From positions 1-49,577 of the forward strand of contig JAGYOL010000005.1 of the NCBI GenBank assembly GCA_018399555.1: DNA of 49,577 nt. Direction: 5' to 3'. Below the pieces are notes generated by a model. The model was not told the origin of the DNA, did no database searches, and saw nothing but the letters and a program-made list of their open reading frames with translations. This stretch comes from Kiritimatiellia bacterium (GTDB lineage: Bacteria > Verrucomicrobiota > Kiritimatiellia > RFP12 > UBA1067). A program made the position numbers and the translations under genes. Below, one piece after another: positions 14,085 to 47,712 of the stretch (the stretch's first letter is position 1; each line of letters begins with the position of its first letter).

Positions 14085-14085
14085 G

Positions 14086-14113: not shown

Positions 14114-14144
14114 CGCATAAGACGCGGTCACGGAGAGTTCAGTT

Positions 14145-14663: not shown

Positions 14664-14704
14664 TGTTGTTGCAGATTGTCCGGTGGGCAGTGCGGAGAGT
14701 GGCA

Positions 14705-15304: not shown

Positions 15305-15323
15305 AAGTTCCGGTTAAACAACA

Positions 15324-16883: not shown

Positions 16884-16958
16884 CGACACTCCGGGTGCGG
16901 CGACTATGAGTTGGTGAGTGTAAAAATTAATTGTCTCTTTGGAAAGTGCGGGTTGTAA

Positions 16959-17111
16959 ATGTTCAACGAGATTTATAATTTCAGAGATTGCAGATCGGTT
17001 GCACTGCTGACGGCTGGTGTGTTGATCTTTACGGTACTTCTAATTGAAAGAACCGATTTGAATGCCCGGGAGTATAAACGTTTTCGTAAATTTGAAGAGT
17101 GGAGTTCCTGA
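16959..17111 (+). CDS. Small single-pass membrane protein in the Tad locus
   Basis: A 50-codon frame starts ATG 16959 and ends TGA 17109-17111. The product has a polar N-terminus (MFNEIYNFRDCRS), a hydrophobic helix VALLTAGVLIFTVLLI and a basic, charged C-terminal tail (YKRFRKFEEW). A weak GGAAAG lies upstream. It fills most of the gap between the TadG-like gene and the next TadE-like gene, and it is in the direction of the operon. No family is recognised. Confidence 0.5.
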   Translation: MFNEIYNFRDCRSVALLTAGVLIFTVLLIERTDLNAREYKRFRKFEEWSS

Positions 17112-17117
17112 ATATTT

Positions 17118-19041: not shown

Positions 19042-19128
19042 AGAGTGTGTGGGTACGTGGGGATGTGTGTGGGTGTGTGAGGATTTTGGATGAGCGTACA
19101 GAACGGCATTTTTCAAAAGGAGGTTGAA

Positions 19129-20724: not shown

Positions 20725-20802
20725 TGAAGAGTGAGTTGAAAATATGTCAGACGTGTCCCGCCGAAATCTGGGGTATTCAGGATTTTGTGTTACAGGCTGT
20801 CA

Positions 20803-22581: not shown

Positions 22582-23466
22582 ATGCTGAATGATCTGATGG
22601 TGCTTTTACTGGTATTTGCCGCAGTCACCTGGGGTGTCTGGATTGTGGCACCAATGCTGGCGCAGATCGGGCTGGAGCGTTCGGACAGTCAATATGTGCG
22701 GGTCGATGCCACCGCCCAGCTTGCGCCGATTTACCGCTTTACCACTCCGCAGCGACTGGCGCAAGCCTGCTGGTGGTCGGCTTTACTGGGGTCAGGTCTG
22801 TTGTTGGCAGTTCTGATAGCTTTTAATGTGCTCAGTGTTTATATCATCTCATTTTGCTGTTTTCTGAGTGGTCTGCTGAGTTTTCATATTCCTAAGTGGT
22901 GGCTGAAACGTCGCATCCGTAAACGTCAGGCTGCCTTTGACGCACGTTTAACCGATTTAACGCTCGGTCTTGCCAATGGTTTGCGCTCCGGCGCCGCTCT
23001 GCCGCAAAGTCTTGAAATTGTATCACGGGATATCGGCGGCCCTATGACCGAAGAGATGTCGCTGGTGCTGCATGAATATCGGCTAGGTATTGATTTGCCC
23101 GAGAGTCTGGAACGTCTGACCAGGCGGATGCCCGGTGAAGACTTAGCACTGCTGGTTACGGCGATCCGTCTGACGATGCAATCCGGCGGCTCCCTGGCCG
23201 AGGTACTGGACCGGATAACCGATACCATTAGACATCGCGTTGACTTTCAGGATCGACTCGCCACAATGACCGCCCAGGGACGCTTTGAAGCAATCGCGAT
23301 GGCCTCCGCGCCGCTGGTCGCATTTCTGATCCTTTTTTTGCTCGATCGGCAGCTCATGGAGCCGCTGATCACAACCAGAATCGGCTGGTCGGCTCTCGGT
23401 GTGGTTGCGCTGCTTGAAATAACCGGTTTTCTGGTGATCAACAAGATTGTCACGATCAAGGTGTAG
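22582..23466 (+). CDS. tadB: Tad inner-membrane platform protein TadB
   Basis: This 294-residue type II secretion F-domain protein has membrane helices at about 5-27, 70-105, 235-255 and 265-288. The cytoplasmic F domain lies between them, with ARLTDLTLGLANGLRSGAAL, then SLVLHEYRLGIDLPESLERL and LLVTAIRLTMQSGGSLAEVL, which are TadB signatures. CGGAG precedes the ATG. It is followed after ten bases by tadC, the usual pair that forms the platform for the CpaF ATPase. Confidence 0.92.
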   Translation: MLNDLMVLLLVFAAVTWGVWIVAPMLAQIGLERSDSQYVRVDATAQLAPIYRFTTPQRLAQACWWSALLGSGLLLAVLIAFNVLSVYIISFCCFLSGLLSFHIPKWWLKRRIRKRQAAFDARLTDLTLGLANGLRSGAALPQSLEIVSRDIGGPMTEEMSLVLHEYRLGIDLPESLERLTRRMPGEDLALLVTAIRLTMQSGGSLAEVLDRITDTIRHRVDFQDRLATMTAQGRFEAIAMASAPLVAFLILFLLDRQLMEPLITTRIGWSALGVVALLEITGFLVINKIVTIKV

Positions 23467-23476
23467 GAGTGTTTAA

Positions 23477-24379
23477 ATGGGTGCACAGGTCGCTGTTATT
23501 CAAATTATGGTCTTTTTTGCGGTGCTCTCTCTGGTTACCGGATTGAATGCCGTTATCCGGCGCGAGTATGTGACTTTGGATGTCAGGAAACCGTGGATAT
23601 TCAAGGTGTTTTACGCCGAGATCGAGGTGCTAGGCAAAATGACAGCCACCCGGTTTGAGCAGGCCTTTCCGATGCAGAGCCGCCAGATTGTGCGTGATAT
23701 CGTTGCCGGTGCCATACCTGTCTCGCTGACTGAGGTGCGCGGGGTTCAGACCTTTGCCGGTATAGTCTGTAGTGCGCTTGCCGCGATTATCACCTTTATT
23801 ATTACCTTGAACACGCTTTATGCGGTGTGTGCCGGCTTTTTTTTACTGCTGCTCGGCTGGTATTATCCTCTTTCCTGGGTTGCGCGTCTGGCATTTCAAC
23901 GCAAAGAAGAGATGTCACGCGCTCTTCCTTATGCGATTGATCTTATCACTGTGGCCATGGAGGCAGGTCAGGATTTCGGTGCGGCGGTGCGTAACCTGGT
24001 CAATCAGGGACCTTCCGGTGCTTTGCGTGATGAATTCGGCGTTATGCTGCGAGAGACTGAGCTGGGCAAATCGCGCGTTGAAGCGTTGCAGGTTATGTCC
24101 GAAAAGATACAACTTGATGAATTCCGCTCTCTGGTAACCGCTGTTGTGCAGAGCAGTGAAATGGGCTCCAGCATATCAGGAACGTTGAAACTGCAGGCGG
24201 AAGAGATCCGCCGGCGACGTTACAATAAAGCGGAGCGACAAGCAGCCCGCGCACCTTCATTGATGCTGATTCCGACCGCCCTTTTCATTCTGCCTGCAGT
24301 TTTTATCATCATTATAGTTCCAATTGCCATTAAAGCCATGGAGTCAGGCATCTCTGATTACATGAGCAGGGGAGGTTGA
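23477..24379 (+). CDS. tadC: Tad inner-membrane platform protein TadC
   Basis: This 300-residue partner of TadB has the F domain with ALPYAIDLITVAMEAGQDFG and LGKSRVEALQVMSEKI, then FRSLVTAVVQSSEMGSSI and RYNKAERQAARAPSLMLIPT, the most conserved TadC stretch. Membrane helices lie near the N-terminus, about 95-130, and at the C-terminus (LFILPAVFIIIIVPIAI). AGGAG lies upstream. The TGA stop at 24377-24379 is just ahead of the start of the next, FHA-domain gene, so the signalling block continues the same transcript. Confidence 0.92.
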   Translation: MGAQVAVIQIMVFFAVLSLVTGLNAVIRREYVTLDVRKPWIFKVFYAEIEVLGKMTATRFEQAFPMQSRQIVRDIVAGAIPVSLTEVRGVQTFAGIVCSALAAIITFIITLNTLYAVCAGFFLLLLGWYYPLSWVARLAFQRKEEMSRALPYAIDLITVAMEAGQDFGAAVRNLVNQGPSGALRDEFGVMLRETELGKSRVEALQVMSEKIQLDEFRSLVTAVVQSSEMGSSISGTLKLQAEEIRRRRYNKAERQAARAPSLMLIPTALFILPAVFIIIIVPIAIKAMESGISDYMSRGG

Positions 24380-24384
24380 TTCGT

Positions 24385-25908
24385 ATGCTAAAACTTATTA
24401 TCACCAATGGTGAGTCGGTCGGGAGAGAGTTTGTGCTCCGTCAGGGCGAAAATTTGATCGGACGCTCACGTTCAACCGATATCCGCCTGAGTTCGATGGA
24501 TGTTTCCGGACGGCATGCGCGTCTGATGGTCGAAGGCGATTGTCTATATGTTGAGAATCTGAGTCAGTACAACACCTTTGTTGATGGTGAGACCATAACC
24601 GAACGCACTCGTCTTCTGCCGGGTCAGTGTTTGAAAACAGGCAAGACGGTTGAATTCAAGTTAAATCTCGTCGATGCGACGGTTGAGACACAAAGTGGTG
24701 GCGGCGCGGCAGGAGTATCAGAGCCGCCTGCTGAAGCTGACACCGGCGAAGGTTTAACTGCCGCCGCCGGTGCAACCGGCACTTTCGACAATGATCTGAC
24801 TATGGATGCCACTGCGGCGGCTTTTGCCGAAGATGAGGAGGGGGCCACCCGTGCGATGCACACCCGCGCCGCCACCCCGGATGAAATCGAACATCTCAAA
24901 ATCAAAGAGACCCAGCGGATCAGATACCGCATGTTCATGATTATCGGCGGTGTCGCGGTGCTGCTGACTCTGGGGGTAATCTTCCGTCCGCGCACTCAGG
25001 CGCCTGAACTCGAATTGCGCTGGCCGGTAAATGAGCAGGACCTCTATCTTAACAGCTTTGAACCAAGCCGCGCCGGCGGCCGGGAAAAGGGGGATTATGA
25101 CATCAGATATCCGGCCAACGGAACTTTCACTAAAAGTGATTCCCCTGGCGGCTTCACGCTGGCCGGCTTTGTCGGAAGGAATCGTGATGTGCCGATGCGC
25201 ATTATAGTACAGGAAGAGCTGGATCTGCGCTTCGCTTCTATGAGCAGCGATGAGATCGTCCGTGACTGGATAGATATGATTTCAGCCGGCGGCAAAGCCT
25301 GGCGCATCGATAAACCTTCGGCATTGACACTCTTTTTCGGCGATAAAAACGGCGTTCCCTATACCCGCACCAGTTATCTGCGCGATGACGCCGGTGCATC
25401 CTGGTTCGGCATAGCCAATATTTTCCGTCACGGACGTCGGCGGATCGTCGTCCGGTCTGAAGCACCGGCTGTCGAACAGACCCGAGTTGAATCGCTGCTG
25501 ACTTCACGCTTGGTGTATGTGGCCGATGAGTTTCAGTTTTCGTACTGGCCATATGTCAGAATTGGAGAGAGTGTGCCGGTTGAAACTCTGTTGGAACAGG
25601 TACGGCGTGACATGGAGCGTATGGCACCGGGCACCTGGATGTCAATCAACAGAATGCTCTGCGGTATACTCAGCCGCGTGGTGCCGGCACAGGATGCTGA
25701 ATCTGAAAAGGAATCGCTGCGCCTGCTGCGCAAACTGCGCGGAAACGAAGCACTTTGGTTCAATAGCCAACAGCTTGCCTTTGAATCAGCCGTTTTCCGC
25801 GGCGATCTAAAACATGCCAAAAAGGTGATGGTCTTCACCAAAGGGGTCTTTTCAGATATGAGCGACCAACGCTACTATACAGTGAGAAAATGGAATGTGG
25901 AGCTCTGA
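24385..25908 (+). CDS. FHA-domain single-pass membrane protein, Tad locus
   Basis: The 507-residue product starts at ATG 24385, set by GGGAGG nine bases before; the TTG at 24376 overlaps the tadC stop. The N-terminal FHA domain (about 1-95) has NLIGRSRSTDIRL, MDVSGRHARL and QYNTFVDG, so the phosphothreonine-contacting Arg, Ser-x-x-His and Asn are present. A Thr-rich acidic linker (GTFDNDLTMDATAAAF, GATRAMHTRAATPDE) could carry phosphorylation sites. One membrane helix (MFMIIGGVAVLLTLGVIF, about 183-203) and a 300-residue domain beyond it with no recognised family complete it. It could connect cytoplasmic phosphorylation to the periplasm. Confidence 0.8.
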   Translation: MLKLIITNGESVGREFVLRQGENLIGRSRSTDIRLSSMDVSGRHARLMVEGDCLYVENLSQYNTFVDGETITERTRLLPGQCLKTGKTVEFKLNLVDATVETQSGGGAAGVSEPPAEADTGEGLTAAAGATGTFDNDLTMDATAAAFAEDEEGATRAMHTRAATPDEIEHLKIKETQRIRYRMFMIIGGVAVLLTLGVIFRPRTQAPELELRWPVNEQDLYLNSFEPSRAGGREKGDYDIRYPANGTFTKSDSPGGFTLAGFVGRNRDVPMRIIVQEELDLRFASMSSDEIVRDWIDMISAGGKAWRIDKPSALTLFFGDKNGVPYTRTSYLRDDAGASWFGIANIFRHGRRRIVVRSEAPAVEQTRVESLLTSRLVYVADEFQFSYWPYVRIGESVPVETLLEQVRRDMERMAPGTWMSINRMLCGILSRVVPAQDAESEKESLRLLRKLRGNEALWFNSQQLAFESAVFRGDLKHAKKVMVFTKGVFSDMSDQRYYTVRKWNVEL

Positions 25909-25913
25909 AAAAA

Positions 25914-28193
25914 ATGCTGATACGTCTTGAATTTAACGACAGAGTCATTCATCAGATAAAAGCTGCCGACATAACCGGTGAAATTGTAATCGGCCGTTCC
26001 TCATCCTGCACCTGGAGTGTGCCCAAGGAGGATAAACTGGCCAGTTCCAGACACCTCGCAATTTCATTGCGCGGCAAACATGTGTATGTAAAAGATCTTC
26101 AAAGTACCAACGGCAGCTTCTTCAACGGCAAACGGATTACGGAACGCAACTTGGCTGAAGGTGATAAAATCGGGGTCGGAAATTGCATTCTCTATGCGCT
26201 GCCGGATTCCGGCAGCAGTAAAAACCGCTGCTCGGAGTTGCTGGTGCTCTCTGGTAAAGAGCGCAATAAAAAGAAAAAACTGGTTCCGCCGCTCTTCACC
26301 ATCGGTTCAGATCCGGCTTCGTCGCTTGTATTTCTTGATATGCTGATCTCACGCAATCATGCGCAGATTGCAATCAATGATGATGGCAGCTGCTGGCTCA
26401 AGGATCTTAACAGCAAAAACGGCACATCGGTTAACGGGGTTCCACTACGCTCGGAGAAGGAGCGCCTGCTCAAAGACGGTGATAAAATCAGTTTTTCGCA
26501 GATGGAGGTTGAGTTTCATGACGGTGCGGTTGCACGCACAACCTCGCATGTCTGGCTGAAACTCGCCATAATTGTGATGACGGCTGTTCTGGCACTGGGA
26601 AGTTATAATCTCTATAAGCGGTGGCAACCATCCGCCGCGTTTTACATCGCTGAGTGTCGTAAACTGGCGGCTGAAGAGCAGTTTGACGAAGCCGCCCGGA
26701 TGCTGCTTAAAGCTGAAAATGCGCATCATGCTCAAGCGCAGCAAGTTGAGATTTTACAGTTACGCCGACTGCTGGAGATATGGCAACGCACATCCCGAAT
26801 GTGGTATGAGACGCGCGACCTGCTCAAATCGGAGAAGTGGACAGCGGTGTCGAGGAATCTCGGCCAATTGCAGAGTGAAAAATCCGAGGCTTGGGAGTGG
26901 AACAAAAAGGCAGGCGCACAAAAAGATCAGGCGCTTTTTTGCAAATCGATGCTGGACGCGCGTTCGCGTTTTCTGGCGATGCTGGCACGTGACAGTGTGC
27001 GACTGGATCAGCTGCGTGAGCTCTCCGACGATGCTGCCGCCCTGCTGCAGCAGCAGCCGGCGGATGATTTGCCGGAATATCTTCAGCCATTACACGGTGA
27101 ACTGGCAGAGGCAAACCTGCAGTTGAATGAGTTGCTGGTGAACGTGCAGAGTGTTGAAGCGGCACTGGACAAGCTTGTGCTGGATCAACCACCCTTTGCA
27201 GAAATTGAAGTAGTGCTTGAACAGGCCGGTAAATCCAAAAAACGTGTTGTGAAAAACATGGCTTCTAAAATGGTGCCGGTTGTGGCCGGGCTCGCGGAGA
27301 GTGACGCCGTTCTGCGCAAGGTGATTGCCGCAGTGCAGGCGCTGGACACGCAGAGCGTGCGCTCAAGCGATCTGAATCTCCCCTCCGCAGATGTCTGTGC
27401 GCTAGATCCGCGGGCGTCCACCGCCCGGCAGTCGCTTGAGAAAAAACATACAGAGATTCGTCTTCAGGGTTCTCAGGCACTGCTTTTCTTCCAAGCCGTC
27501 GATGAGATTATCGGGCGTGCCGGTACAGATATTCCCCATCTGGCTGAATTTAGAAGCAAAGATGTGATGCACAATGTGCTGGCCTGTGACTCTCTTGAGC
27601 GTCCTTTGCCGCGCCGCAGCCGCAAACAGGCCTCAGGTGATTATGACCGTATGCTCGGGGTGGAGGAGTTCTACGCCTGGATGGATGCCCTGCCTGAACC
27701 GCTTGATCCGGCATTCGTTTCCGATATCGCCTTCCGACCACTTCTGACTCAGGCTGGCGAGCTATGGAAAAAGATCGCTCTGTTCATAACTTTCGTCGAA
27801 CAGCCGGCTAACAACTGGATGGTGTCCGGAGAGTTGCAGAGTCAGTTGGAACGTTGTAAAAGTCTGGTGGCACTGCGTGACGAACTGGTACACGGATTGC
27901 TTGAGAAAGCGCGCAGCTCCGCCGGACGCGAGGCCCTGATCGCCGCAGGTACAGCCTGCCGCATGCTCGGTAACAATAATGCAACCACCTTTATGGATAA
28001 ACCTCTGGCAGAGTGGATTGATGGAGAATTCAGTACGTATCGCCGCGGTCTGATCAAGCTGAATGAAGAGTTTTCTTTGGCATCCCTTGAGCAAAAGGTT
28101 ACAATACGCGACAAGGTTATGGTTGTGGGTCTGCCGGGTGATCCGATTGTCAGGAGAATGTGGGCCATGCGTGATGCCTCACGCGGAAAATAG
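25914..28193 (+). CDS. Double-FHA membrane protein with long helical periplasmic region
   Basis: This 759-residue protein has two FHA domains. The first (about 1-100) keeps IVIGRSS, ASSRHLAIS and STNGSFFNG. The second (about 115-205) reads FTIGSDP in place of GR, with ISRNHAQI and SKNGTSVNG intact, so it may bind phosphopeptides differently. A membrane helix follows (LAIIVMTAVLALGSYNLY, about 217-236), then some 520 residues rich in Leu, Glu, Lys and Ala with predicted helical or coiled character and no catalytic motif. ATG 25914 is preferred, although ATG 25890 is also in frame and would overlap the previous gene. Perhaps a scaffold. Confidence 0.8.
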   Translation: MLIRLEFNDRVIHQIKAADITGEIVIGRSSSCTWSVPKEDKLASSRHLAISLRGKHVYVKDLQSTNGSFFNGKRITERNLAEGDKIGVGNCILYALPDSGSSKNRCSELLVLSGKERNKKKKLVPPLFTIGSDPASSLVFLDMLISRNHAQIAINDDGSCWLKDLNSKNGTSVNGVPLRSEKERLLKDGDKISFSQMEVEFHDGAVARTTSHVWLKLAIIVMTAVLALGSYNLYKRWQPSAAFYIAECRKLAAEEQFDEAARMLLKAENAHHAQAQQVEILQLRRLLEIWQRTSRMWYETRDLLKSEKWTAVSRNLGQLQSEKSEAWEWNKKAGAQKDQALFCKSMLDARSRFLAMLARDSVRLDQLRELSDDAAALLQQQPADDLPEYLQPLHGELAEANLQLNELLVNVQSVEAALDKLVLDQPPFAEIEVVLEQAGKSKKRVVKNMASKMVPVVAGLAESDAVLRKVIAAVQALDTQSVRSSDLNLPSADVCALDPRASTARQSLEKKHTEIRLQGSQALLFFQAVDEIIGRAGTDIPHLAEFRSKDVMHNVLACDSLERPLPRRSRKQASGDYDRMLGVEEFYAWMDALPEPLDPAFVSDIAFRPLLTQAGELWKKIALFITFVEQPANNWMVSGELQSQLERCKSLVALRDELVHGLLEKARSSAGREALIAAGTACRMLGNNNATTFMDKPLAEWIDGEFSTYRRGLIKLNEEFSLASLEQKVTIRDKVMVVGLPGDPIVRRMWAMRDASRGK

Positions 28194-28275: not shown

Positions 28276-30216
28276 ATGATTTTAAAAGATAGATTCTTTC
28301 TTCCGATTGTTCAGAGTATCAGAGCGGCGGTCGTCAGTTTACTGATTGCCGGCTGCGTTTCAAACAATGTCTTTGACGACGGACGTGACGACGTTGCCAA
28401 TTATGAGTCGCTGGAGTTGTCAGCCGCTTTGCCGCCCCCGCGCGATATCTCATTAAAAGGAGACGGACTGCGCTGTGTCGAATTGAGATGGACCGCACCG
28501 GAGGTAAAGGTTTTTCGCTATCGTATTGAACGTTCGCAAAAAAGTGACGGCGACTTTGACTTTGTCGCTAATGTCGATCCTGGACTGGGCGGTTATGTGG
28601 ATGGTGCCCACCCCGATCATCGTCTCCAGGACAGCACCACATATTATTACCGGCTGGTCTCTGTTGAAACGGCGGAGGGTCCGCGTTCGCAACCCTGTGA
28701 GGTGCTGAGCACCACAACCGCCCCGCCGCCGGGAGCGGTAAGAAATCTGCGTGTCCATGCCGCTGGCTCGCGGGAGAACAAGTTGAGTTGGGAATCTGCG
28801 TCCGGCGCGGGTTCCCTGACATACCGTATCGAACGATCTGCAGCGGAGACGCCTGACAAATTTGAACGAGTCGGCACCACCCATGCGATGACTTATGTGG
28901 ATGGCGGAACTCCCTCCGCAACGCTGAAAGACAGTTCCGAATATCTCTACCGGGTGATCACGCTTAATGAAGTCGGCGCAGAAAGCGAAGCATCGGAATC
29001 CGTGGATGTCGTCACCTTTCCACCGCCAACAGTTGTTCAGGGATTTGAAGCTCTTTCCGGTGAGGTCCGCTGCGTTCCGCTCAAATGGCGGGCGGCCCCC
29101 GAAGATGATGTTGTCGAATATCACATTTTCAGCGCACGCGCTCTCGATGAAGAGTTTGAAAAAATTGCGGTAATCAAAGGAAGAAGCGTCACGGAATTTC
29201 TGCACGGCAATTCAAATCCCGGTGAACTTGAAGATGAAGCGACATACTATTATCGGATTTGCGCAGTCAACGATGTCGGCTCCAGCAGCGAACTTACCGA
29301 ACCGGTCAAGGTCGCCACCCGTCATATACCTCCGGTCGTCAGCGGTGTGACGGTGGAGTCGGGATGTCCGCGCGAGGTGCCGGTCGCTTGGGATGCCTCC
29401 GCCGATACCGCAGTCTGCGGTTATGAAGTCTGGCGATCACTTGAGGGTGATGATGAATGGCAACAGATCAGGGTGCTCAACGACCCCAAAGTTGTGAAAT
29501 ATCTGGATCGTGGCGGTGTTTCAGAGAACGACAAGCTTGGGGGGCTGCTTGACGGCACAAACTATGCTTACCGAATTATCGCCTTCAATGCGGGTGGTGT
29601 GCGTTCATCAGCATCTGAACCGGTTACGGCCACCACGAAATTCCTGCCAGCAACACCGCAATCTCTTCAGGCGACCGGCGGATTGGCCGGTGTCATAAAA
29701 CTGCAGTGGGCTGCAAACCCCGAAAGTGACATCAAGGGCTATGCAGTGGAGGTGTCGTCACGTGAGGAACGGGGGTTTAAGGAACTCTGTTATGTGAGGG
29801 CTGCAGCGGCTGGTGAGAAGCTGACGACGCATGAGACGGACCTTGAGGTTGAGACCACTCGTTATTACCGTATCAAAGCCCTCGACATCGAAGGACTTGA
29901 AAGTCGTTGGAGTGCTGTGGTCGGTGCCACTACCAAGGCATTGCCGCAAACGCCGGCGTCGTTGCAGCTGACCGACGCAGCGGATGCTTTGGTGCTACGC
30001 TGGGAAAAACCGCCGCAGAATGATATTGTCAAATACAACGTCTGGTCGCGTCAGTTGCTCGGCTGGAAGCAGATCGGTGAGTCCGACAGATGTGAGTTCA
30101 CGCTCGATAAAAAATCACTGCAAGAGATTGTTTCTCTGGCGGTCTCGGCTGTCGATCAGGATGGCCTCGAGAGTGCAAAGAGTGAGCCGATTAAACAGAG
30201 TATCAGCGTTGAATAG
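28276..30216 (+). CDS. Lipoprotein with six fibronectin type III repeats
   Basis: The 646-residue product has a lipoprotein signal ending SLLIAGC (Cys27), so it should be anchored in a membrane facing the periplasm or the surface. After a short acidic linker come six Fn3-like repeats of roughly 95-105 residues. Their starts are marked by PPPRDISLKG, AVRNLRVHAAG, VVQGFEALSG, VVSGVTVESG, TPQSLQATGG and TPASLQLTDA. The tyrosine corner is visible (TTYYYRLVSV, YLYRVITLNE, TYYYRICAVN, NYAYRIIAFN, RYYRIKALD) and is lost in the last repeat. ATG 28276 is chosen because it starts the signal peptide, with CAGGAG upstream. It may bind polysaccharide, protein or the pilus. Confidence 0.85.
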   Translation: MILKDRFFLPIVQSIRAAVVSLLIAGCVSNNVFDDGRDDVANYESLELSAALPPPRDISLKGDGLRCVELRWTAPEVKVFRYRIERSQKSDGDFDFVANVDPGLGGYVDGAHPDHRLQDSTTYYYRLVSVETAEGPRSQPCEVLSTTTAPPPGAVRNLRVHAAGSRENKLSWESASGAGSLTYRIERSAAETPDKFERVGTTHAMTYVDGGTPSATLKDSSEYLYRVITLNEVGAESEASESVDVVTFPPPTVVQGFEALSGEVRCVPLKWRAAPEDDVVEYHIFSARALDEEFEKIAVIKGRSVTEFLHGNSNPGELEDEATYYYRICAVNDVGSSSELTEPVKVATRHIPPVVSGVTVESGCPREVPVAWDASADTAVCGYEVWRSLEGDDEWQQIRVLNDPKVVKYLDRGGVSENDKLGGLLDGTNYAYRIIAFNAGGVRSSASEPVTATTKFLPATPQSLQATGGLAGVIKLQWAANPESDIKGYAVEVSSREERGFKELCYVRAAAAGEKLTTHETDLEVETTRYYRIKALDIEGLESRWSAVVGATTKALPQTPASLQLTDAADALVLRWEKPPQNDIVKYNVWSRQLLGWKQIGESDRCEFTLDKKSLQEIVSLAVSAVDQDGLESAKSEPIKQSISVE

Positions 30217-30231
30217 GAGCCTGCAGACACA

Positions 30232-31332
30232 ATGAGTGATTCATTTAAATATCTTGAGGCGGTAACGCGCACCGACATCGGACGTAAACGCAAAAACAAT
30301 GAGGATTCGCTGATCGCTCTGCCCGAATACGGCGTGTACTGCGTGGCTGACGGCATGGGGGGCGCACAAGACGGAGAGGTTGCCTCGCAGGCTGTGGTGG
30401 ATGCCCTGGAAGAGCGCTTTGTGGCCGGTTCCGATTCCGCCTACGCGGTTACAGCTGCAGCCTCCTCCAAGATCGTCGCCATGGCACTCAATAAAGCTAG
30501 CAGTTGGATTGAACAGCGGTCACAGCAGCGCGGAATTCAGGGATGCGGCAGTACGGCGGTGGTTATGGTTTTCGACAAAGTCATGCCCGGGCGCGCAGTT
30601 ATCCTGCACGCCGGTGACAGCCGAGCATATCAGTTTCGCAACCGCAAACTTTCACAGATCACCGTCGATCACTCGGTTGCAGCAGAGGCGGGAGTCGCGG
30701 ATGAGAACGATCTGCCGCCGATGCTGCGGGGCGTCATAACCCGTGCTGTCGGGCTCAAGCCACAGGTCGATACCGATCAGATTTCAGTGGAACTGCTTAG
30801 GGATGACATCTACATGCTCTGTTCCGACGGTCTGTCGCGTATGTTAAGCGACAAAAAGGTTGCAGCGATCTTTAAAAAATATGGCGGTGGTGATTTACAG
30901 CTTTTGCTGGATCATCTTGTTGACAGTGCGCTTGAGGCTGGTGGTAAGGACAACATTTCGGTAATTTTGATCAGAGTGGTCGGGCCGTTGCCGCAGGGTC
31001 CGACTATGCCGGTTTCCGATGAAACCCGCAGACTTGAAACTCTCAAGCTCGGAGTTACAGATGAAGAACTTCAGAGTTCAACGACTGCAGTGACAGGCGG
31101 TGAATCCACCGGTGAGCATTCCGCGGAGTCGGGAGAGGATGTTGTGGAGTGCGTGACACCCGGCGGCGGCAGCACTGAAAACGGGAGACGTACGGTGACC
31201 GATAACGATCCTGCTGCAATTCCCGACGCAACACGCGGCAGAAAGCGGCTGCCCATAATTCTGTGTGTCGCACTTGCTCTGGCTGTGCTGTTGATTGCGC
31301 TCTTTTTTGCAGTAGACTTCTTTCTGCAGTAA
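30232..31332 (+). CDS. PP2C-family serine/threonine phosphatase, membrane anchored
   Basis: This 366-residue phosphatase should remove phosphate from Ser/Thr residues and so oppose the neighbouring kinase. All PP2C metal-ligand motifs are visible: NNEDS, VADGMGG, GSTAVVM, LHAGDSRAY, TVDHS, CSDGLSRML and GGKDNISV. An extended Thr/Ser/Glu-rich linker (about 260-335) leads to a C-terminal membrane helix (IILCVALALAVLLIALFFAV), so the catalytic domain stays in the cytoplasm. The membrane anchor is at the C-terminus, as in some stand-alone PP2C enzymes. The kinase gene begins 23 bases after its stop. Confidence 0.93.
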   Translation: MSDSFKYLEAVTRTDIGRKRKNNEDSLIALPEYGVYCVADGMGGAQDGEVASQAVVDALEERFVAGSDSAYAVTAAASSKIVAMALNKASSWIEQRSQQRGIQGCGSTAVVMVFDKVMPGRAVILHAGDSRAYQFRNRKLSQITVDHSVAAEAGVADENDLPPMLRGVITRAVGLKPQVDTDQISVELLRDDIYMLCSDGLSRMLSDKKVAAIFKKYGGGDLQLLLDHLVDSALEAGGKDNISVILIRVVGPLPQGPTMPVSDETRRLETLKLGVTDEELQSSTTAVTGGESTGEHSAESGEDVVECVTPGGGSTENGRRTVTDNDPAAIPDATRGRKRLPIILCVALALAVLLIALFFAVDFFLQ

Positions 31333-31355: not shown

Positions 31356-34300
31356 ATGGATGATATTTCAGCAAAACAAATCGGGGATTATCAGCTGCTG
31401 TCAATTATCGGTGATGGTGCACAAGGCAGGGTTTATAAAGCCTGTGCTGTGATGGATTTACCCTGCGGTCTTAAAAAGAACGATGCGGTTGCGCTGAAGG
31501 TTGTGAATATAGCGGGTGAAGATGAAACGCTGCGGCAGAAGTTTCAGGCGCAAGCCGACATTCTGCGACGTCTCTCACATGAAAGCATTGTCAAATATAT
31601 CGACAGTTTCATTTGGCACACTGGTGAGCTGGATGAATGTCAATGTCTTGTGATGGAGTATCTCGAGGGTGAAGATTTGACCGCCCGGGTGCGGAATATG
31701 AGCGGCGGTCTGACCTGGCCGCAGGTCGAGGATATTTTTGAAAAGTGTCTCGCTGCGCTGATTCACGCGCGCGAGTGCGGTATTACACATCGTGACATAA
31801 AACCTTCGAATATCTATCTGACCAGAGATGGCAAAGTTAAACTGATTGATTTTGATATCGCCCGCCGTGATGACAGCGAACAGTTGAGTACTGCCGGATG
31901 GAAGGGCACCTTTGATTACATGGCTCCCGATTTCATTACGCTCGAAGGTTTTCATGGTGATGAAATATCCGACATCTTCAGCCTGGGTGTCTGTTTTTAT
32001 CAGGCACTGACCGGAGCACTGCCTTATGAACCGCTGGGTTCCAACGCACACATCGGTTATGTGAACCGCTGGCACTCGGGGAACGGCAAGCCCCCATCAT
32101 TCCGTTTCGGCGTTTTTCGCGTACTGGCTGGCGCAAAGAGTTTTGTCGCCCGGGCACTGGCGGTCAAGCGTGAGGAGCGCTATCATAGTTTCACAGCCAT
32201 GCTTGAGGATTTTCGCAGAATTCATTATCGGGTTGTGCGTCACAAAGGCAAAGAGGATTACGAATTGATAGCCCTGCTGGGACGCGGCGGTTTCGGTGAG
32301 GTTTTCAAGGCCAGATGTGTGAGTGATGGACGATTGGTTGCCGTTAAACACCTCTTTTCCGCTCAGCAATCCGGACGTTTTATCAAAGAGGCAAAAATTC
32401 TGCAGCGTTACAATCATGAAAATCTGGTGCAGTATGTCGATTTTATGACGCAGGAAACCAATACCGGAGAGCAGCAGTTTTTTCTGGTTATGGAGCATCT
32501 CGAGGGTATGCCCGGCTGGACATTGCGCACCCGCATTAAAAATGAGGGGCGCATTGGCGTGCAGGAGTGCATAAAACTTTTTCATGCATATCTGCAAGCA
32601 CTGGATTTTCTGCACGGCAATGCCCGTCCTATTATCCACCGCGATATCAAGCCCGGCAATCTTTACGCACCGGTAGGAAGACCTGAAAAGGGTAAAATAT
32701 TCGATCTGGGGGTGGCGCGCGATGTAAGCGGCACTGTAACGGTGGGAGGAGTGCCGGGAACGCTGGATTACATGGCCCCGGAATTCGCCGACGCCTCGGG
32801 CGACCGCGGTTCCCCGCGATCCGACCTTTACGCTCTCGGGTTGTGCCTGTATGAGGCGCTCACCGGTAAAACTGTATATGAACGTCTGCCGAAAGATATC
32901 AATTCAGCCTGGAGCGGCTTTCTGACCCGCATGAAAACACCGCCGGCTGTTGATTTTTCTGATCCGGTTTTTACGGATTATCCCCGTCTTGTATTTATTG
33001 TGAAACGCATGATCGCAATCAACCCGGCTGAGCGGTTTGCCACCGCCGGAGAGTTGAGTGCTGAGCTTGAGCGGGCACTTCTGCCGCCTGAAGCAGAGGG
33101 GTTGAAAGATGACTGTTTTGATGATGTCGAGGTGACCATGGCAACCACCCCGGGCGGAGAGGGGGTAACGCTGGGAACGCGTCCGATGCAGGGCGATATC
33201 AACCAATATCTCGAAGACATAGGCATCGCCGGCAGATCAGCAAAAAAATCAAAACGGACTCTGTTCACAGGCAGAGCTGCCGTGCTGGTTCTTGTTGCGT
33301 CAGTTGCTGTAACAGCCTTTGTATTTGCGATTGCCGCACTGCGGAGCAAAAAGGAAACGGCAATGCCCTCAGAGATGCCCAGTCTCAGAGAACAACCTGT
33401 TCCTAAAACGGAAACGATAGTTAAGCAGCTTGTAAGTGTCGCCGACTATCTCCCGGCCAAAGAGATAGCAGCCCTGGTGCCGGGCGGCATGAAAAGCCGT
33501 ACCGCAATCAAAAATGGTGAAAAAGCCATGCGGTTGCTTGCCGAACAGGAACAGCTTGAGTGGCAAGATGTGGATAAGAACGACAAAGAAAAATTCATTG
33601 CCTCCGAACGTGCGAAACTAAAGGTCGGCATTACCGACAGGATCAAAAACGATGCACTGGAAATTGTTAATCTCAGTGCGGCTGGCAAGAATGCGGAGGA
33701 GAATTACAACGCACTGCTGGATCTGAGAAATGAAGCCCCCTTGCTGATTGCCGGTGTAAAAGATCTCTATCAGCAGTGTTGCGAAGACGCCGATCGTGCA
33801 ATCAAGCGCAAACTGGTGACCGATACGGTCGCATCAATGACAGCCAAAGCTGGCAAAGCCGCCGGAACGGCGGAGTTGGTCGAACTCCTCGCGGGCTTCA
33901 GCAAGCTGGAAGCCATGCCTCAGGTGGAAATTCCTGCGGCACAGCGGGGTGCCTTTAAAACGGTGGCGAAAGAGCGCTCTCTAACTCTGGCAACACAACT
34001 TTTCGAAGCGTTCAAAATAGCTGTCAACGCCTTTCAACTGGAGAAATCCGAAGCGTTGCGCAAGGAATTTGAGCTACTTCACGCGGCGGTCAACAACGAC
34101 TACGGCAAGGCGGAATTCGATGAACTTGCACCGCAATTTGATGCCTTTGTAAAAGATGCGCAACAGCGTAAAACGGCAGCTGCGGTGCCGCCGGTTGAAA
34201 AAAAACAAGAACCCGCCACCGTTGAGAGGATTGATGCTGTTGTCAAACCGGATAAAGAGGAAACTGTACCAGCAGCGACACCTATCGTAAAAATTCAAGA

Positions 34301-34568
34301 TAAGCCGCCGAAGATCGACAAGGCTGCTGACAAAGGGAAGAGTTATCTGGAGATAACCGTCTCGCCGGACAAAGCCACGGTGCAGATCAACGGCGAAGAT
34401 TTCACTGTCGGCAGAGTTGAAGTTGAACCCGGAACAAACCATCGGGTAGATATCTCCTGCCCGGGTTATCAGTCGGTGCGGCAGTTTTACCGTGTCGAGA
34501 AGGGTAAAACCCGCAAGGTTGATATCCTGCTGCAAAAGGGGAAATCACGCTCGCTGTTCGGCTTTTAA
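31356..34568 (+). CDS. Tandem Hanks-type Ser/Thr kinase, membrane protein with PEGA domain
   Basis: This 1070-residue protein holds two kinase domains, one membrane helix (about 639-663), a charged helical region and a C-terminal PEGA domain (about 996-1065, with VSPDKATVQING and CPGYQSVRQFY). Kinase 2 (about 302-590) is canonical: GRGGFGEVF, Lys331, Glu345, HRDIKPGN, DLG, APE. Kinase 1 (about 12-290) keeps Lys48 and HRDIKPSN. However, the alpha-C Glu is Gln66, DFG is DFD (165-167) and APE is APD (190-192), so it may be a regulatory or weakly active domain. The start ATG 31356 excludes an upstream frame extension inside the phosphatase gene. Likely targets are the FHA proteins and pilus ATPase of the same locus. 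Confidence 0.92.
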   Translation: MDDISAKQIGDYQLLSIIGDGAQGRVYKACAVMDLPCGLKKNDAVALKVVNIAGEDETLRQKFQAQADILRRLSHESIVKYIDSFIWHTGELDECQCLVMEYLEGEDLTARVRNMSGGLTWPQVEDIFEKCLAALIHARECGITHRDIKPSNIYLTRDGKVKLIDFDIARRDDSEQLSTAGWKGTFDYMAPDFITLEGFHGDEISDIFSLGVCFYQALTGALPYEPLGSNAHIGYVNRWHSGNGKPPSFRFGVFRVLAGAKSFVARALAVKREERYHSFTAMLEDFRRIHYRVVRHKGKEDYELIALLGRGGFGEVFKARCVSDGRLVAVKHLFSAQQSGRFIKEAKILQRYNHENLVQYVDFMTQETNTGEQQFFLVMEHLEGMPGWTLRTRIKNEGRIGVQECIKLFHAYLQALDFLHGNARPIIHRDIKPGNLYAPVGRPEKGKIFDLGVARDVSGTVTVGGVPGTLDYMAPEFADASGDRGSPRSDLYALGLCLYEALTGKTVYERLPKDINSAWSGFLTRMKTPPAVDFSDPVFTDYPRLVFIVKRMIAINPAERFATAGELSAELERALLPPEAEGLKDDCFDDVEVTMATTPGGEGVTLGTRPMQGDINQYLEDIGIAGRSAKKSKRTLFTGRAAVLVLVASVAVTAFVFAIAALRSKKETAMPSEMPSLREQPVPKTETIVKQLVSVADYLPAKEIAALVPGGMKSRTAIKNGEKAMRLLAEQEQLEWQDVDKNDKEKFIASERAKLKVGITDRIKNDALEIVNLSAAGKNAEENYNALLDLRNEAPLLIAGVKDLYQQCCEDADRAIKRKLVTDTVASMTAKAGKAAGTAELVELLAGFSKLEAMPQVEIPAAQRGAFKTVAKERSLTLATQLFEAFKIAVNAFQLEKSEALRKEFELLHAAVNNDYGKAEFDELAPQFDAFVKDAQQRKTAAAVPPVEKKQEPATVERIDAVVKPDKEETVPAATPIVKIQDKPPKIDKAADKGKSYLEITVSPDKATVQINGEDFTVGRVEVEPGTNHRVDISCPGYQSVRQFYRVEKGKTRKVDILLQKGKSRSLFGF

Positions 34569-34581
34569 AAGGATATCTAAC

Positions 34582-35670
34582 ATGCATGATACCAACGATT
34601 ATCTGAGTTTATTTTTTGAGCCCATCCGTGAGTATCTTGAAGATGACACGGTTTCGGAAATTCTGATCAACGGAGCCGCTCAGATTTATATCGAACGCAA
34701 AGGGCGCCTTGAATTAACCCCGCAGAGGTTCATCAGCGAACCCGCGCTGAAAGCGGCGGCGGTCAATGTCGCCAAAAGTGTCGGTCGGCTTCTGAATGAA
34801 GAGAACCCGCGTCTGGATGCGCGTCTGCCTGATGGCTCACGTGTGCACGCAGTCATCCCGCCGCTTGCGCGTAACGGCACTGTTATTGCTATTCGCAAAT
34901 TCACCAAAGAACGGCTTACAATCGAGCAGCTGATCACCTTCGGCAGTATCACGCCGGAGGGTGCGCGCTTAATCGACACCTGTGTCAAGCTACACAGAAA
35001 TATGATTGTTTCAGGCGCAACCTCATCCGGGAAAACATCGGTTCTGAATGTACTCAGTGCTTATATTCCTGATAACGAGAGAATTCTGGTAATCGAGGAC
35101 TCCAGTGAGTTGCAGCTTCAGCAGAATCATATCGTCGGCTTTGAAACCCGCAAACCGGATAAGAACGGCAATGGCGAGGTCACTATTCGTGATCTGATTC
35201 ATTCATCATTGCGTTTGCGTCCTGATCGTCTGGTGATCGGGGAGATCCGCGGCGGTGAAGCACTGGATCTGCTGCAGGCTCTCAACACCGGACATGCTGG
35301 AAGTATGTCCACAATTCATGCCAATAATCCACATGACTGCCTTTTCCGTATCGAGACCTGCGCACTTTTAAGCGGCATTGATATTCCTCTCAGCGCGTTA
35401 CGTGCCCAGGTGGCTTCCGCCATCGATGTGGTGGTGCATACCGCACGCCTGACCGACGGTTCACGTAAAATCGTGGCGATTTCAGAGGTGTTGGGACTGA
35501 AAGACGGTGAATATCAGTTGAACGATCTGTACGCTTTCAAGATCAAGGGCATATCGCCGGCGGGAATGATCACCGGCAACTTCGCGGGATGCGGCAAACA
35601 TCCCTCTTTCCTGGAGGAAGCCGGACTGATGGGCATCACGCTTGATCCGGAGATTTTCGAGGCAGGATAA
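34582..35670 (+). CDS. Second CpaF/TadA-type secretion ATPase, without FHA domain
   Basis: The 362-residue product is a shorter CpaF: ATPase N-domain (DTVSEILINGAAQIYIE), Walker A GATSSGKTS (about 147-155), Asp box VIEDSSELQL, Walker B RLVIGEIRG and His box IHANNPHDCLFRIE. AAAGGA lies upstream of ATG 34582. It has about 55-60% of the length of the FHA-CpaF at 20803, and lacks the N-terminal helical bundle as well as the FHA domain. Two assembly ATPases in one Tad locus suggest either extension and retraction functions or a second motor mode chosen by signalling. It ends the locus. Confidence 0.92.
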   Translation: MHDTNDYLSLFFEPIREYLEDDTVSEILINGAAQIYIERKGRLELTPQRFISEPALKAAAVNVAKSVGRLLNEENPRLDARLPDGSRVHAVIPPLARNGTVIAIRKFTKERLTIEQLITFGSITPEGARLIDTCVKLHRNMIVSGATSSGKTSVLNVLSAYIPDNERILVIEDSSELQLQQNHIVGFETRKPDKNGNGEVTIRDLIHSSLRLRPDRLVIGEIRGGEALDLLQALNTGHAGSMSTIHANNPHDCLFRIETCALLSGIDIPLSALRAQVASAIDVVVHTARLTDGSRKIVAISEVLGLKDGEYQLNDLYAFKIKGISPAGMITGNFAGCGKHPSFLEEAGLMGITLDPEIFEAG

Positions 35671-37793: not shown

Positions 37794-40700
37794 ATGCGTT
37801 GGTGTACATCGTTTCTTGTATTGGTAACCGCATTTTTGTGCGGCTGTTCCCTGCTGAATATCCGGAAAAACGCCGACCTTAAGGCACCGGTTGCCCTGCG
37901 GGTTGAAAATATGGCTTCGCCGGTAGGTATTGACGTGCAGAAGCCGCGTCTGAGCTGGAAGCTGGTGGCGGGCAGGGGACGTTTTAATCTTAAACAGCAC
38001 TCATATCAGATAAAGGTGGCCGATTCTCTCGAAAAGCTCGAAAGTGGAGCAGCATGGAACAGCGGACGCGTGGTTTCGGAAGCGCAATTCAATATACGCT
38101 ATGACGGCGAGGAGTTACGCAGTTCTCAACGTTATTACTGGAAGGTGCGGGTGTGGAGTACGGCTCAGGCTGAACCGACGGATTGGAGTGAGCCTGTTTG
38201 CTGGATGACCGGTATCATGCAACTACATGAATGGCGTGCACAGTGGATTGGCCCGAACAGAATCACCCGTCCCGATTATGATCTGAAGGGAGCCCGCTGG
38301 ATATGGCACGGCTTCGACCGGACATTGGAAGATTGTGCCGCAGGTAACACTTTCTACTACGCCTCCTTCAAGGCACCCGATGATGTCAGCACACGCAATA
38401 TGATTATGGCCTTGACCGCCGATGACACCTATGAGGTACACATTAACGGTGAGCTGGCTGCAAAATGCTGGGGCCACCTTAATGACTGGAAATGGATGCG
38501 TTTCATCGCTGTCGGGCGTTACCTGAAACCGGGAATAAACACCATTGCGGTGCGGGTTGAGAACAAGGAACGCGGTCCCACCGGAGTGCTGATGGTTATC
38601 AGGGACGAGCGTGATGTTCTGCTGCGCAGCGACAGCGCCTGGAAGGTTGCCAGAAATAGCGGCAAAGATTGGTTTAAACCTGAATCCGCCGCAAGAGCCG
38701 AATCCGCAACAGTAAAGATTGCAGGCGAGGTTGATTGCGCACCGTGGGGCAAAATCGAACGCCGTTTTGAAACTGCAACTCCGGCTTTCGAGAAGAGCTT
38801 TGCGGTTGTCGATAAACCCTTTGAACGGGCGGTGCTGCACATTAGCGGATTGGGTTTCTACGAAGCCTCACTCAACGGTGAAAAGATCGGGCGCAAGGTG
38901 CTCGATCCCAACCCCACCAGGTATGACCGGCGGGTGCTCTACTCCAGTTATGACATCTCAGATTCACTGTGCAAGGGGCTGAACGACATTGCAGTGACGC
39001 TGGGACACGGCTGGTACGATCTGCGCTCAGTTTCGGTTTGGAATTTTGACAACGCTCCCTGGCGTGATTTTCCGCGTATGATTGCGCAACTTGAAATTTA
39101 CTATGAAGATGGAACAACTCAGCGTGTCTGTTCCGATTCAAGCTGGCGTCAGATCAGTACACCGCTCGGCTACGACTGTATTCGTGAAGGCGTGGTGGTC
39201 GGCAAAAACCATCCAGACGCTCCTGATTTAACCCGGCAGGTTGTGATGGCCGAGGTTGTCAGCGCACCCGAAGGCAGGCTCTCTGCATCCATGCTGCCGC
39301 CGACCGTGGTTTCACAACGCTTTAAACCGGCAAATGTCAGAAAACTCGGTGATAAACGCTGGCTGATTGATTTCGGTCAGAACATGGCCGGCTGGGTTGA
39401 TATCAAAGTTGAAGGACAATCGGAGGGTGATGTTATAACGCTGCTTTACGGTGAGCGTGTCAATGAAGATGGCACCTTGAATAACAAGAGTATCAGCGCG
39501 CACTTTCGCTATCCGGCTTCAACCGCACTGGTTAAAGATGGTTATTTTCAGAAGGATCACATTATCTGCGACGGTCGGGATGGTTGGGTCGAATATCCTC
39601 ATTTCGTCTATCACGGCTTTCAATATGTAGAGATCGAGGGACTCAACAGGCGACCCGACGCGGATAACATAGCGGCCTCGGTTATCCAGACTGATTTTGA
39701 GAAGTGCGGCAACTTTCACTGCTCAAATGAACTGCTCAACAAGCTGCAGCGTGCCGCTGTATGGGCCTATATAGGCAATTTCTCCAATGGGTATCCGACA
39801 GATTGCCCACATCGTGAAAAGAACGGCTGGACCGGTGATGCCTCGCTGGCAGCTGAAATGGGTATGTATAACTTCGATAACATCGCGGCATACGAAAAAT
39901 GGATTCAGGATATCATGGACGAACAGCGTCCGGATGGAAACTTCGCCGCGATTATTCCCACCAGCGGATGGGGATATAAATGGGGTAACGGCCCTGCCTG
40001 GGACAGCGCTCTGCTTACAATACCTTGGGCATTGTATATATACAAAGGTGATCTTGCCATACTTGAGCACGCCTACGACAGCATGCGTAAATATGTCGAT
40101 TATATGACCTCGAAATCCAGCGGACATCTTGTCACTCACGGTCTCGGCGACTGGGTGCCGGCAAAATCAAAAGTGCCCGCTGAGGTCACTTCATCCGCTT
40201 ATTTCTATCTGGACGCACTTATTGTTTCACGCAGCGCGAAGTTGCTCGGCAAAGAGGATGATGCACGTAACTACGCAAATCTGGCGGATCGCATTAAACG
40301 GGCATTCAACGCCAGGCATTACAAGGGCGACGGTATCTACTCGATCGGAACGCAGACCGCTCTCTCCTGCGCATTGCACCAGGGTATCGCGGCAGATGAT
40401 ATGATCGGCCCGACGCGTCGCGCTCTGATCAGATTGGTGGAGGAACGCGACAAATGTGTAATGGATTTTGGCATCCTCGGCTCGAAGTATATATTTCGTT
40501 CGCTGAGCGACGCCGGGCGCTCGGATATTGCATACCGAATGCTTTGCACTACCGACAAGCCCTCGTTCGGCAGATGGATCACCGAGGAAAACGCCACCAC
40601 CCTCTGGGAGGACTGGGAGAAAGGGCAATCACGCAATCATATCATGTTCGGAGACTTTTCGGCTTGGATGTATCAATATCTGGGCGGTATCCGCCTGAGT

Positions 40701-41036
40701 GATGATGTCTGCGCCGTGGCCAGCAGGATTGATCCCGCGAAGATTGCGTTCAAAGAGTTTGTCATTGCTCCTGAACCGGTGGAGGATTTAACCCACGTCC
40801 GGGCGCATCATGATTCACCCTACGGAGTTATAGCATCCGAATGGAAGATTGAAGATGGTGAATTCACGCTGAAAGTCTCCATCCCGGTCAATACAACCGC
40901 AACCATCTATCTTCCGGTGACACCGGGAACAGATGGTGTTGAAAGCAGTGTGCCGGAGGTGAAATCAGATCGTGCGCGCGCGGCTTTTGCAGTCGGTTCG
41001 GGTGATTACGTGTTTTCCATTCCGAATTTCAGGTGA
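37794..41036 (+). CDS. Alpha-L-rhamnosidase, GH78 family, lipoprotein
   Basis: This 1080-residue enzyme should release terminal alpha-L-rhamnose from glycans outside the cytoplasm. It begins with a lipoprotein signal (FLCGC, lipid Cys18). An Ig-like Fn3-type domain follows (LRVENMASPVGIDVQKPRLS, about 35-130), then the Bac_rhamnosid N-terminal jelly roll (EASLNGEKIGRKVLDPNPTR) and the (alpha/alpha)6 catalytic barrel. That barrel contains DCPHREKNGWTGDASL, whose Glu (about 675) is the expected general acid. A second conserved Glu lies in TTLWEDWEKG (about 939). A C-terminal beta-sandwich completes the fold. GGAGG lies before the ATG. The preceding beta-helix gene supports pectin or rhamnogalacturonan use. 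Confidence 0.94.
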   Translation: MRWCTSFLVLVTAFLCGCSLLNIRKNADLKAPVALRVENMASPVGIDVQKPRLSWKLVAGRGRFNLKQHSYQIKVADSLEKLESGAAWNSGRVVSEAQFNIRYDGEELRSSQRYYWKVRVWSTAQAEPTDWSEPVCWMTGIMQLHEWRAQWIGPNRITRPDYDLKGARWIWHGFDRTLEDCAAGNTFYYASFKAPDDVSTRNMIMALTADDTYEVHINGELAAKCWGHLNDWKWMRFIAVGRYLKPGINTIAVRVENKERGPTGVLMVIRDERDVLLRSDSAWKVARNSGKDWFKPESAARAESATVKIAGEVDCAPWGKIERRFETATPAFEKSFAVVDKPFERAVLHISGLGFYEASLNGEKIGRKVLDPNPTRYDRRVLYSSYDISDSLCKGLNDIAVTLGHGWYDLRSVSVWNFDNAPWRDFPRMIAQLEIYYEDGTTQRVCSDSSWRQISTPLGYDCIREGVVVGKNHPDAPDLTRQVVMAEVVSAPEGRLSASMLPPTVVSQRFKPANVRKLGDKRWLIDFGQNMAGWVDIKVEGQSEGDVITLLYGERVNEDGTLNNKSISAHFRYPASTALVKDGYFQKDHIICDGRDGWVEYPHFVYHGFQYVEIEGLNRRPDADNIAASVIQTDFEKCGNFHCSNELLNKLQRAAVWAYIGNFSNGYPTDCPHREKNGWTGDASLAAEMGMYNFDNIAAYEKWIQDIMDEQRPDGNFAAIIPTSGWGYKWGNGPAWDSALLTIPWALYIYKGDLAILEHAYDSMRKYVDYMTSKSSGHLVTHGLGDWVPAKSKVPAEVTSSAYFYLDALIVSRSAKLLGKEDDARNYANLADRIKRAFNARHYKGDGIYSIGTQTALSCALHQGIAADDMIGPTRRALIRLVEERDKCVMDFGILGSKYIFRSLSDAGRSDIAYRMLCTTDKPSFGRWITEENATTLWEDWEKGQSRNHIMFGDFSAWMYQYLGGIRLSDDVCAVASRIDPAKIAFKEFVIAPEPVEDLTHVRAHHDSPYGVIASEWKIEDGEFTLKVSIPVNTTATIYLPVTPGTDGVESSVPEVKSDRARAAFAVGSGDYVFSIPNFR

Positions 41037-43984: not shown

Positions 43985-44539
43985 ATGTCCATTGATGATT
44001 CAAACGCGGGTGCCTGCGCATGTGCATGTTCGGAACCGCCCTCAGAGGCTGAACAGTTCTCTCGGTTGGATGAGGTGATAGCGGAGTATCGCAACAAAGC
44101 GGGGGGGTTGATTCCGGCACTTCAGATAGCTCAGTCGCTCTTTGGATATCTACCTGACACAGTAGTCAACCGAATTGCCGAAGGTTTCGGTAAGACCGTC
44201 AGTGAGGTGGCAGGTGTCATCTCATTCTACTCCTTTTTCACTCGCAATCCGCGCGGAAAATATCTTATCCGTGTATGTCTCGGAACCGCCTGCTATGTCC
44301 GCGGCGGTAAAGAGGTTCTGGATGCTCTCAAAAAGAAACTTTCGATCGATGTGGGCGAAACAACCGAGGACCGTTTGTTTTCGCTTGAAGTGGGCCGCTG
44401 TTTCGGAGCCTGCGGCATGGCACCGGTTGTGATGGTCAATGACGAAACCTATCAGAGGGTTAAACCCGCACGTATCAATGAGTTGCTGATGCAGGTTACA
44501 GCTGATGACAATGAGTCGGAACAGGGGGATGCACAATGA
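43985..44539 (+). CDS. hydC: [FeFe] hydrogenase HydC subunit (NuoE-like, [2Fe-2S])
   Basis: This 184-residue subunit has the thioredoxin-like NuoE fold with four [2Fe-2S] ligands: Cys98 and Cys103 in RVCLGTACYVRGG, Cys139 and Cys143 in GRCFGACGMAPVV. IPALQIAQSLFGYLPDTVV and VISFYSFFTRNPRG are conserved NuoE blocks. It passes electrons between HydB and the rest of the complex in trimeric bifurcating hydrogenases. An extra Cys-rich N-terminus (ACACACSE, Cys11, 13 and 15) is not a standard NuoE feature. A strong AGGAGGT fixes the start. Its stop overlaps the hydB ATG by four bases (ATGA), so translation is coupled. Confidence 0.93.
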   Translation: MSIDDSNAGACACACSEPPSEAEQFSRLDEVIAEYRNKAGGLIPALQIAQSLFGYLPDTVVNRIAEGFGKTVSEVAGVISFYSFFTRNPRGKYLIRVCLGTACYVRGGKEVLDALKKKLSIDVGETTEDRLFSLEVGRCFGACGMAPVVMVNDETYQRVKPARINELLMQVTADDNESEQGDAQ

Positions 44540-47691: not shown

Positions 47692-47712
47692 ACTTTAAGC
47701 GGAGATTTTAAG

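Follow-up and report, generated by a model that had tools for sequence, protein, structure and literature searches.

The kinase gene and its product

The window analyzed here is a 49,577-nucleotide stretch of DNA from a Kiritimatiellae-type MAG (assembly of 2.86 Mb, 82% complete). The gene of interest occupies positions 31356-34568 as an ATG-started open reading frame of 1070 aa; this gene and all of the operon genes described below are on the forward (+) strand. Pfam analysis of the product revealed two Pkinase domains and a C-terminal PEGA domain, and the predicted order along the chain is kinase 1, kinase 2, transmembrane stretch, helical rod, disordered linker and PEGA. Kinase domain 1 (residues ~9-285, 31380-32210) has the beta-3 (VAIK) lysine, Lys48 (31497-31499), Gln66 at the alpha-C Glu position (31551-31553), DFD at residues 165-167 in place of DFG (31848-31856), APD at residues 190-192 in place of APE (31923-31931) and Arg275 (32178-32180), which is expected to form a salt bridge with the APE/APD acid. 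Kinase domain 2 (residues ~300-565, 32253-33050) has a canonical set of motifs (K331, E345, HRD, DLG and APE). Based on their Gly loop, VAIK Lys, HRDxxxxN motif, DFG Asp and Pkinase fold, both domains belong to the Hanks-type Ser/Thr kinases, and domain 2 is an ordinary member of that group. Structure prediction of the kinase part using AF2 (pLDDT 85.6, pTM 0.81) returned a kinase fold for each of the two domains.

A single hydrophobic stretch, at about residues 641-661 (33276-33338), lies between the kinase pair and the C-terminal part and is predicted by hydrophobicity to span the membrane. In the AF2 model of the ectodomain (mean pLDDT 84.8, pTM 0.57), a long helical rod leads through a disordered linker to a beta domain, which coincides with PEGA. 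The predicted extracytoplasmic rod (about residues 699-943, 33450-34184) is poorly conserved in sequence; strong conservation is confined to the PEGA end (residues 998-1062, 34347-34541), where it is highest for the ectodomain, and to the RSLFGF-like tail at the terminus. In a fold search, nothing matched the ectodomain at E ≤ 0.001, and the top hits were to the small beta domain. The gene product is best explained as a Ser/Thr kinase that crosses the membrane once, with both kinase domains in the cytoplasm and a rod-plus-PEGA ectodomain, and the topology predicted from the one transmembrane stretch, Pfam and AF2 agrees with the original prediction, made from the DNA sequence of the window, that PEGA is across the membrane from the kinases. 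The kinase falls short of the PknB/PASTA family model NF033483, with a score of 312 bits against a cut-off of 450, and has PEGA and no PASTA domain. Its nearest named relatives are from Kiritimatiellae/Verrucomicrobia MAGs, the closest having 79% identity over the kinase part, and a tblastn search of plasmids found only kinases of <60% identity. PADLOC matches (mad6, PD-T4-6 and others) proved to be general matches to the kinase fold, and a role in defense was rejected. We found no literature on bacterial tandem or PEGA kinases, or on Kiritimatiellae Tad kinases.

The Tad operon around the kinase

The kinase gene is located in a Tad (type IVc) pilus locus. This locus includes ORFs for a Flp-like pilin, a prepilin peptidase, TadE, and Tad/TadG-like and TadE-like proteins (13797-17723), followed by two ORFs for CpaB/RcpC and the secretin CpaC/RcpA (18271-20724), a TadA/CpaF ATPase with an N-terminal FHA domain (20785-22539) and two ORFs for the T2SSF platform proteins TadB and TadC (22582-24379). 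Next are membrane proteins with one (24376-25908) and two (25890-28193) FHA domains, an fn3-repeat protein with a possible lipobox, LLIAGC (28276-30216), and, directly upstream of the kinase, a PP2C phosphatase with intact metal motifs and a C-terminal transmembrane segment (30232-31332). A second TadA/CpaF-type ATPase, which has no FHA domain, starts 13 bp downstream of the kinase (34582-35670), giving this one Tad locus two motor ATPases. From CpaB to this second CpaF the gaps between genes are at most 82 bp and two gene pairs overlap. All of the components that define a Tad locus were identified (TadA, TadB, TadC, secretin, CpaB, prepilin peptidase, TadE/G and Flp pilin), with the Flp pilin candidate scoring below its Pfam cut-off.

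The FHA domains of the operon have most of the usual GR, SxxH and NG residues. That of the FHA-TadA is at residues 47-111, and this protein conforms to class III CpaF, which is defined by an N-terminal FHA domain (PMC12019362). The operon of the machine thus contains kinase, PP2C and FHA protein together, the combination that characterizes a Thr phosphorylation pathway of the PpkA/PppA/Fha type. Elsewhere in the window, Rfam identified a tRNA and nothing else. The Tad region is flanked by an alpha-L-rhamnosidase on one side and, on the other, a GH123-like protein that has a carbohydrate-binding module (37794-41036 and 1772-5464). The genes at 43985-49494 probably encode an electron-bifurcating [FeFe]-hydrogenase, with subunits that are NuoE-like, NuoF-like and of the iron-only hydrogenase type; the middle subunit carries a fused pyridine-nucleotide oxidoreductase domain.

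The divergence of kinase domain 1 is conserved

The original prediction described domain 1 as degenerate, and its residue calls (K48, Q66, DFD, APD and E345) are all correct. Gln66 is at the alpha-C Glu position in the family alignment and under the Glu of FRREA in the phmmer alignment to PknB, and the alpha-C helices of the AF2 model span 57-71 and 336-351, with Q66 and E345, respectively, each nine residues beyond the first. An alignment of homologous tandem kinases, in which 40 homologs include domain 1 (a 41st row being a contig fragment without it), revealed that the alpha-C position of domain 1 is non-Glu in 40 of 40, with Gln in close homologs and mostly Arg in distant ones. The alpha-C Glu of domain 2 is kept in those proteins with the exception of L040. 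Domain 1 is thus consistently divergent beside a canonical domain 2.

We also examined a wider set of 186 kinase domains that includes 49 domain-1 and 48 domain-2 sequences, the former being as little as 36% identical to the window's tandem kinase. In trees the two domains form separate clades, apart from the unsure L083. The alpha-C residue of the domain-1 sequences is Arg in 23, Gln in 16, Glu in four and another residue in six, and the DFG motif reads DFE in 23, DFD in 15 and DFG in 11. Since Q66 and DFD recur in all close orthologs (~64-79% identity), and Glu is missing from 45 of the 49 domain-1 sequences but from only one of the 48 for domain 2, the changes cannot be attributed to chance. 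The canonical status that had been proposed for domain 2 was likewise borne out, with E345, DLG and APE present and Glu in 47 of 48 sequences. Of the four domain-1 sequences with Glu, the one from L083 proved to be a second domain. Those of L079, L080 and L081 leave no doubt when inspected (RREA, QREL and EREI, respectively) and likewise come from tandem kinases. Therefore, when orthologs are searched for canonical motifs, the close ones uphold the divergence of domain 1, but these three deeper ones, which have both alpha-C Glu and DFG, go against it.

Other features of domain 1 show strict conservation. Lys48, the HRD Asp147, Asn152 and the DFG Asp165 are invariant in all 49 sequences, and domain 1 also has a Gly loop, which, as with the DFG Asp, was a point absent from the original prediction. 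Over a 39-sequence alignment H145, F166, D206 and R275 are invariant and L70 nearly so; we take L70, H145, F166 and D206 to be the regulatory-spine positions and R275 to be the usual partner of the APE acid. The change from APE to APD, found in 36 of the 49 sequences, is by these residues conservative, with the acid kept and its expected partner Arg275 invariant. A truly degenerate domain, such as the additional N-terminal one in L064 with its LAARN and NLA, provides a contrast.

Some of the homologs have expanded architectures. The 2281-aa protein of L064 (6990-13832) has its N-terminal degenerate kinase domain followed by a domain 1-domain 2 pair and then a further kinase domain, and the proteins of L016, L017, L025 and L027 (G024:C126, G010:C28), of 2407 and 2783 aa, have two such pairs, in which the second domain 1 combines an alpha-C Ile with DFE.

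Loss of the alpha-C Glu is coupled to an acidic DFG residue

Among the 186 domains, an acidic third DFG residue was found in none of the 134 that have the alpha-C Glu and in 41 of the 52 that do not (Fisher p = 2e-31, a calculation that ignores relatedness). Within domain 1, Arg occurs with DFE (20 sequences) and Gln with DFD (13 sequences), and these were never crossed. The same pairing was identified in L152 and L157, which are of an unrelated lineage, another kinase family in the class, and have a beta-3 Arg, an alpha-C Gly, DFD and HLD; judged from these motifs, they are an independent DYD-like set. L022 was placed by trees inside the tandem-kinase family. A phylogenetic independent-pairs test of the coupling had five pairs only and was not significant, and the quick and the careful trees disagree on the order and number of the changes, so the coupling rests on few independent events. 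In addition, seven of the 11 domain-1 sequences that keep DFG have no alpha-C Glu, which demonstrates that the loss of Glu is tolerated without the acid.

We infer that the ion pair of Lys48 has moved from the alpha-C helix, where Glu became Gln66, to the third DFG residue, where Gly became Asp167, the proposed substitute partner. Because the pattern matches that of the DYD kinases and POMK (discussed below), Gln66 and Asp167 are more plausibly a single swap than two separate defects. An alternative is that both domains are ordinary active kinases and that the three differences in domain 1 represent near-neutral drift within tolerated limits. The conservative nature of APD would fit with this, as would the retention of DFG in 11 domain-1 sequences and the three tandem kinases that have alpha-C Glu with DFG. 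However, the changes extend across the clade and are without exception among the close orthologs, the two kinds of residue at position 66 each have their own acid (Asp with Gln in one set, Glu with Arg in another), and domain 2 has undergone no such drift, all of which makes drift very unlikely.

Is domain 1 a pseudokinase?

The usual sequence test for a pseudokinase is loss of the VAIK Lys, the HRD Asp or the DFG Asp. Domain 1 retains all three and is therefore not a pseudokinase by that definition. The proposal of a pseudokinase-kinase pair is at odds with the invariance of these residues, and of the Asn, across the family, and its premise that three changed motifs signify degeneracy does not hold in that Gln66 and Asp167 are coupled and APD is conservative, so that they are not three independent defects. 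Domain 1 probably binds ATP and Mg and is probably catalytically active, altered rather than dead.

Potentially, domain 1 could still be a functional pseudokinase that binds ATP without phosphate transfer and allosterically switches domain 2. A precedent is Fam20A, in which Gln replaces the catalytic Glu and which binds ATP without catalysis and activates Fam20C (PMC5413348). This would be consistent with the conserved loss of the alpha-C Glu beside a canonical partner, and with the modeling of both domains as one confident assembly (pTM 0.81). On the other hand, a non-catalytic regulator need not keep the HRD Asp, Asn and DFG Asp, which are invariant in 49 of 49 sequences, and the coupled acid at DFG, together with the intact Lys and DFG Asp, also argues against it. 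We consider such a regulator rather unlikely, albeit a serious possibility. A rewired and probably active domain 1, a canonical domain 2, and control of the Tad machine via PP2C and FHA proteins together form the best explanation of the locus, and one that we favor with slight confidence over its being wrong. With its acid on DFG, domain 1 would depend less on alpha-C movement; it could be constitutively active toward domain 2 as its substrate, or specialized for one particular target.

Linkage of the kinase to the Tad machine

Comparison of homologous loci revealed that PP2C adjoins the kinase in most of them, that an fn3 protein is upstream of the PP2C-kinase genes in several orthologous loci, and that a second-type CpaF is beside or near the kinase in seven loci, including that in the window. 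In four loci (L054, L055, L058 and L062) the fn3-PP2C-kinase trio is away from recognizable Tad genes in the stretch seen, indicating that the trio is the tighter unit. We also compared the occurrence of the kinase with that of the window's FHA-TadA type, defined by at least 58% identity, in 115 genomes of the host's family: 20 have both, three the kinase alone, three the TadA alone and 89 neither, in genomes that are incomplete and with occurrences that are clustered by kinship. A second TadA-type ATPase in the genome of the window (G000:C13:2483-4177) has 48% identity to the window's FHA-TadA, and this other type is present in most genomes of the family.

Based on the gene content of the operon and its analogy to known systems, the likely role of the kinase is reversible Thr-phosphorylation control of this Tad machine. 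The tandem kinase would be the writer and the PP2C the eraser, with the FHA membrane proteins and the FHA domain on the TadA motor ATPase as phosphothreonine readers, and reversible phosphorylation would govern how the Tad machine of this operon is assembled or fired; the substrates and the direction of control are ones that we infer from this arrangement. Alternatively, the kinase and phosphatase may be a general envelope-stress pair that is merely beside Tad, whose proteins would not be its targets. This alternative concerns the role and is compatible with any reading of domain 1. It could account for the four loci in which the trio is away from Tad genes, and PEGA, as an ectodomain, could monitor the envelope. 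Against it are the co-occurrence with the FHA-TadA type (20/3/3/89), the second-type CpaF near the kinase in seven loci or the three FHA proteins in the operon, and we regard it as unlikely.

More generally, and only tentatively, we suggest a Kiritimatiellae-centered family of Tad-linked tandem receptor kinases in which an acidic DFG residue replaces the alpha-C Glu pair, domain 1 would be active with no alpha-C switch, and control of a pilus or secretion machine would be read by FHA domains, one of them fused to the motor. Members of this one kinase family have the ion pair in place (L079-L081), lack it (L065, L074, L076 and L077) or apparently have a replacement for it (DFD and DFE), and the canonical domain 2 serves as an internal control. 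This natural series would let one ask if the alpha-C Glu is dispensable when DFG carries an acid, and it bears on how far a pseudokinase can be called from sequence.

Comparison with known systems

The DYD kinases of Actinobacteria and Firmicutes, in which the second Asp was modeled as bridging to the beta-3 residue (O'Boyle et al. 2025; PMC12599244), resemble domain 1 in having no alpha-C Glu and an acidic third DFG residue. They differ in that DYD pseudokinases have Arg for the beta-3 Lys, whereas domain 1 has Lys in 49 of 49 sequences, and in that the kinases described here have DFD or DFE in one domain of a tandem pair and are from Kiritimatiellae hosts. POMK (SgK196) is active although it was once classed as a pseudokinase, and in its crystal structure the catalytic Lys is paired with an Asp that occupies the place of the DFG Gly (PMC5142810). 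As in domain 1, the alpha-C Glu has been lost (it is Gly in POMK) and an Asp has been gained at the DFG Gly position. Unlike domain 1, where the other catalytic residues are in place, POMK also has a moved Lys, an altered catalytic loop and a sugar substrate. Mutation of its replacement Asp to Gly gave no drop in activity (PMC5142810), and therefore the putative Lys48-Asp167 ion pair may not matter.

Two other systems involve paired kinases or kinase domains. As in the tandem kinase, one partner of Fam20A-Fam20C has Gln in place of the catalytic Glu, but Fam20A and Fam20C are separate proteins of the secretory pathway, and ATP binds to Fam20A in an inverted orientation that does not involve divalent cations. 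JAK JH2-JH1 has, as here, two kinase domains per chain with the atypical one first. A JAK-like interdomain arrangement was considered and found no support, as the Foldseek fit over both domains had an rmsd of 19 Å and the arrangement therefore differs from that of JAK in the model.

The operon has counterparts in two secretion-related systems. In T6SS, secretion is turned on by FHA binding together with the PpkA-dependent phosphorylation of a core component on Thr (PMC3953482), and the PpkA-PppA-Fha set is similar to that described here in associating a Ser/Thr kinase, a PP2C and an FHA reader with a secretion machine. It differs in that a Tad machine is involved here and in that the kinase has tandem kinase domains and an ectodomain with PEGA. 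The Tad-like Kil apparatus of M. xanthus also has an FHA-fused CpaF (KilF) and several FHA proteins, and a signaling cascade was inferred for this FHA-rich system (PMC8460266). The main text of that paper mentions no kinase or phosphatase for Kil, whereas here both are in the operon. The tandem kinase, PP2C and FHA proteins are thus a candidate for the kind of cascade inferred for Kil, potentially supplying a kinase and a phosphatase of the sort suggested as needed by FHA-rich Tad-like systems such as that of Myxococcus.
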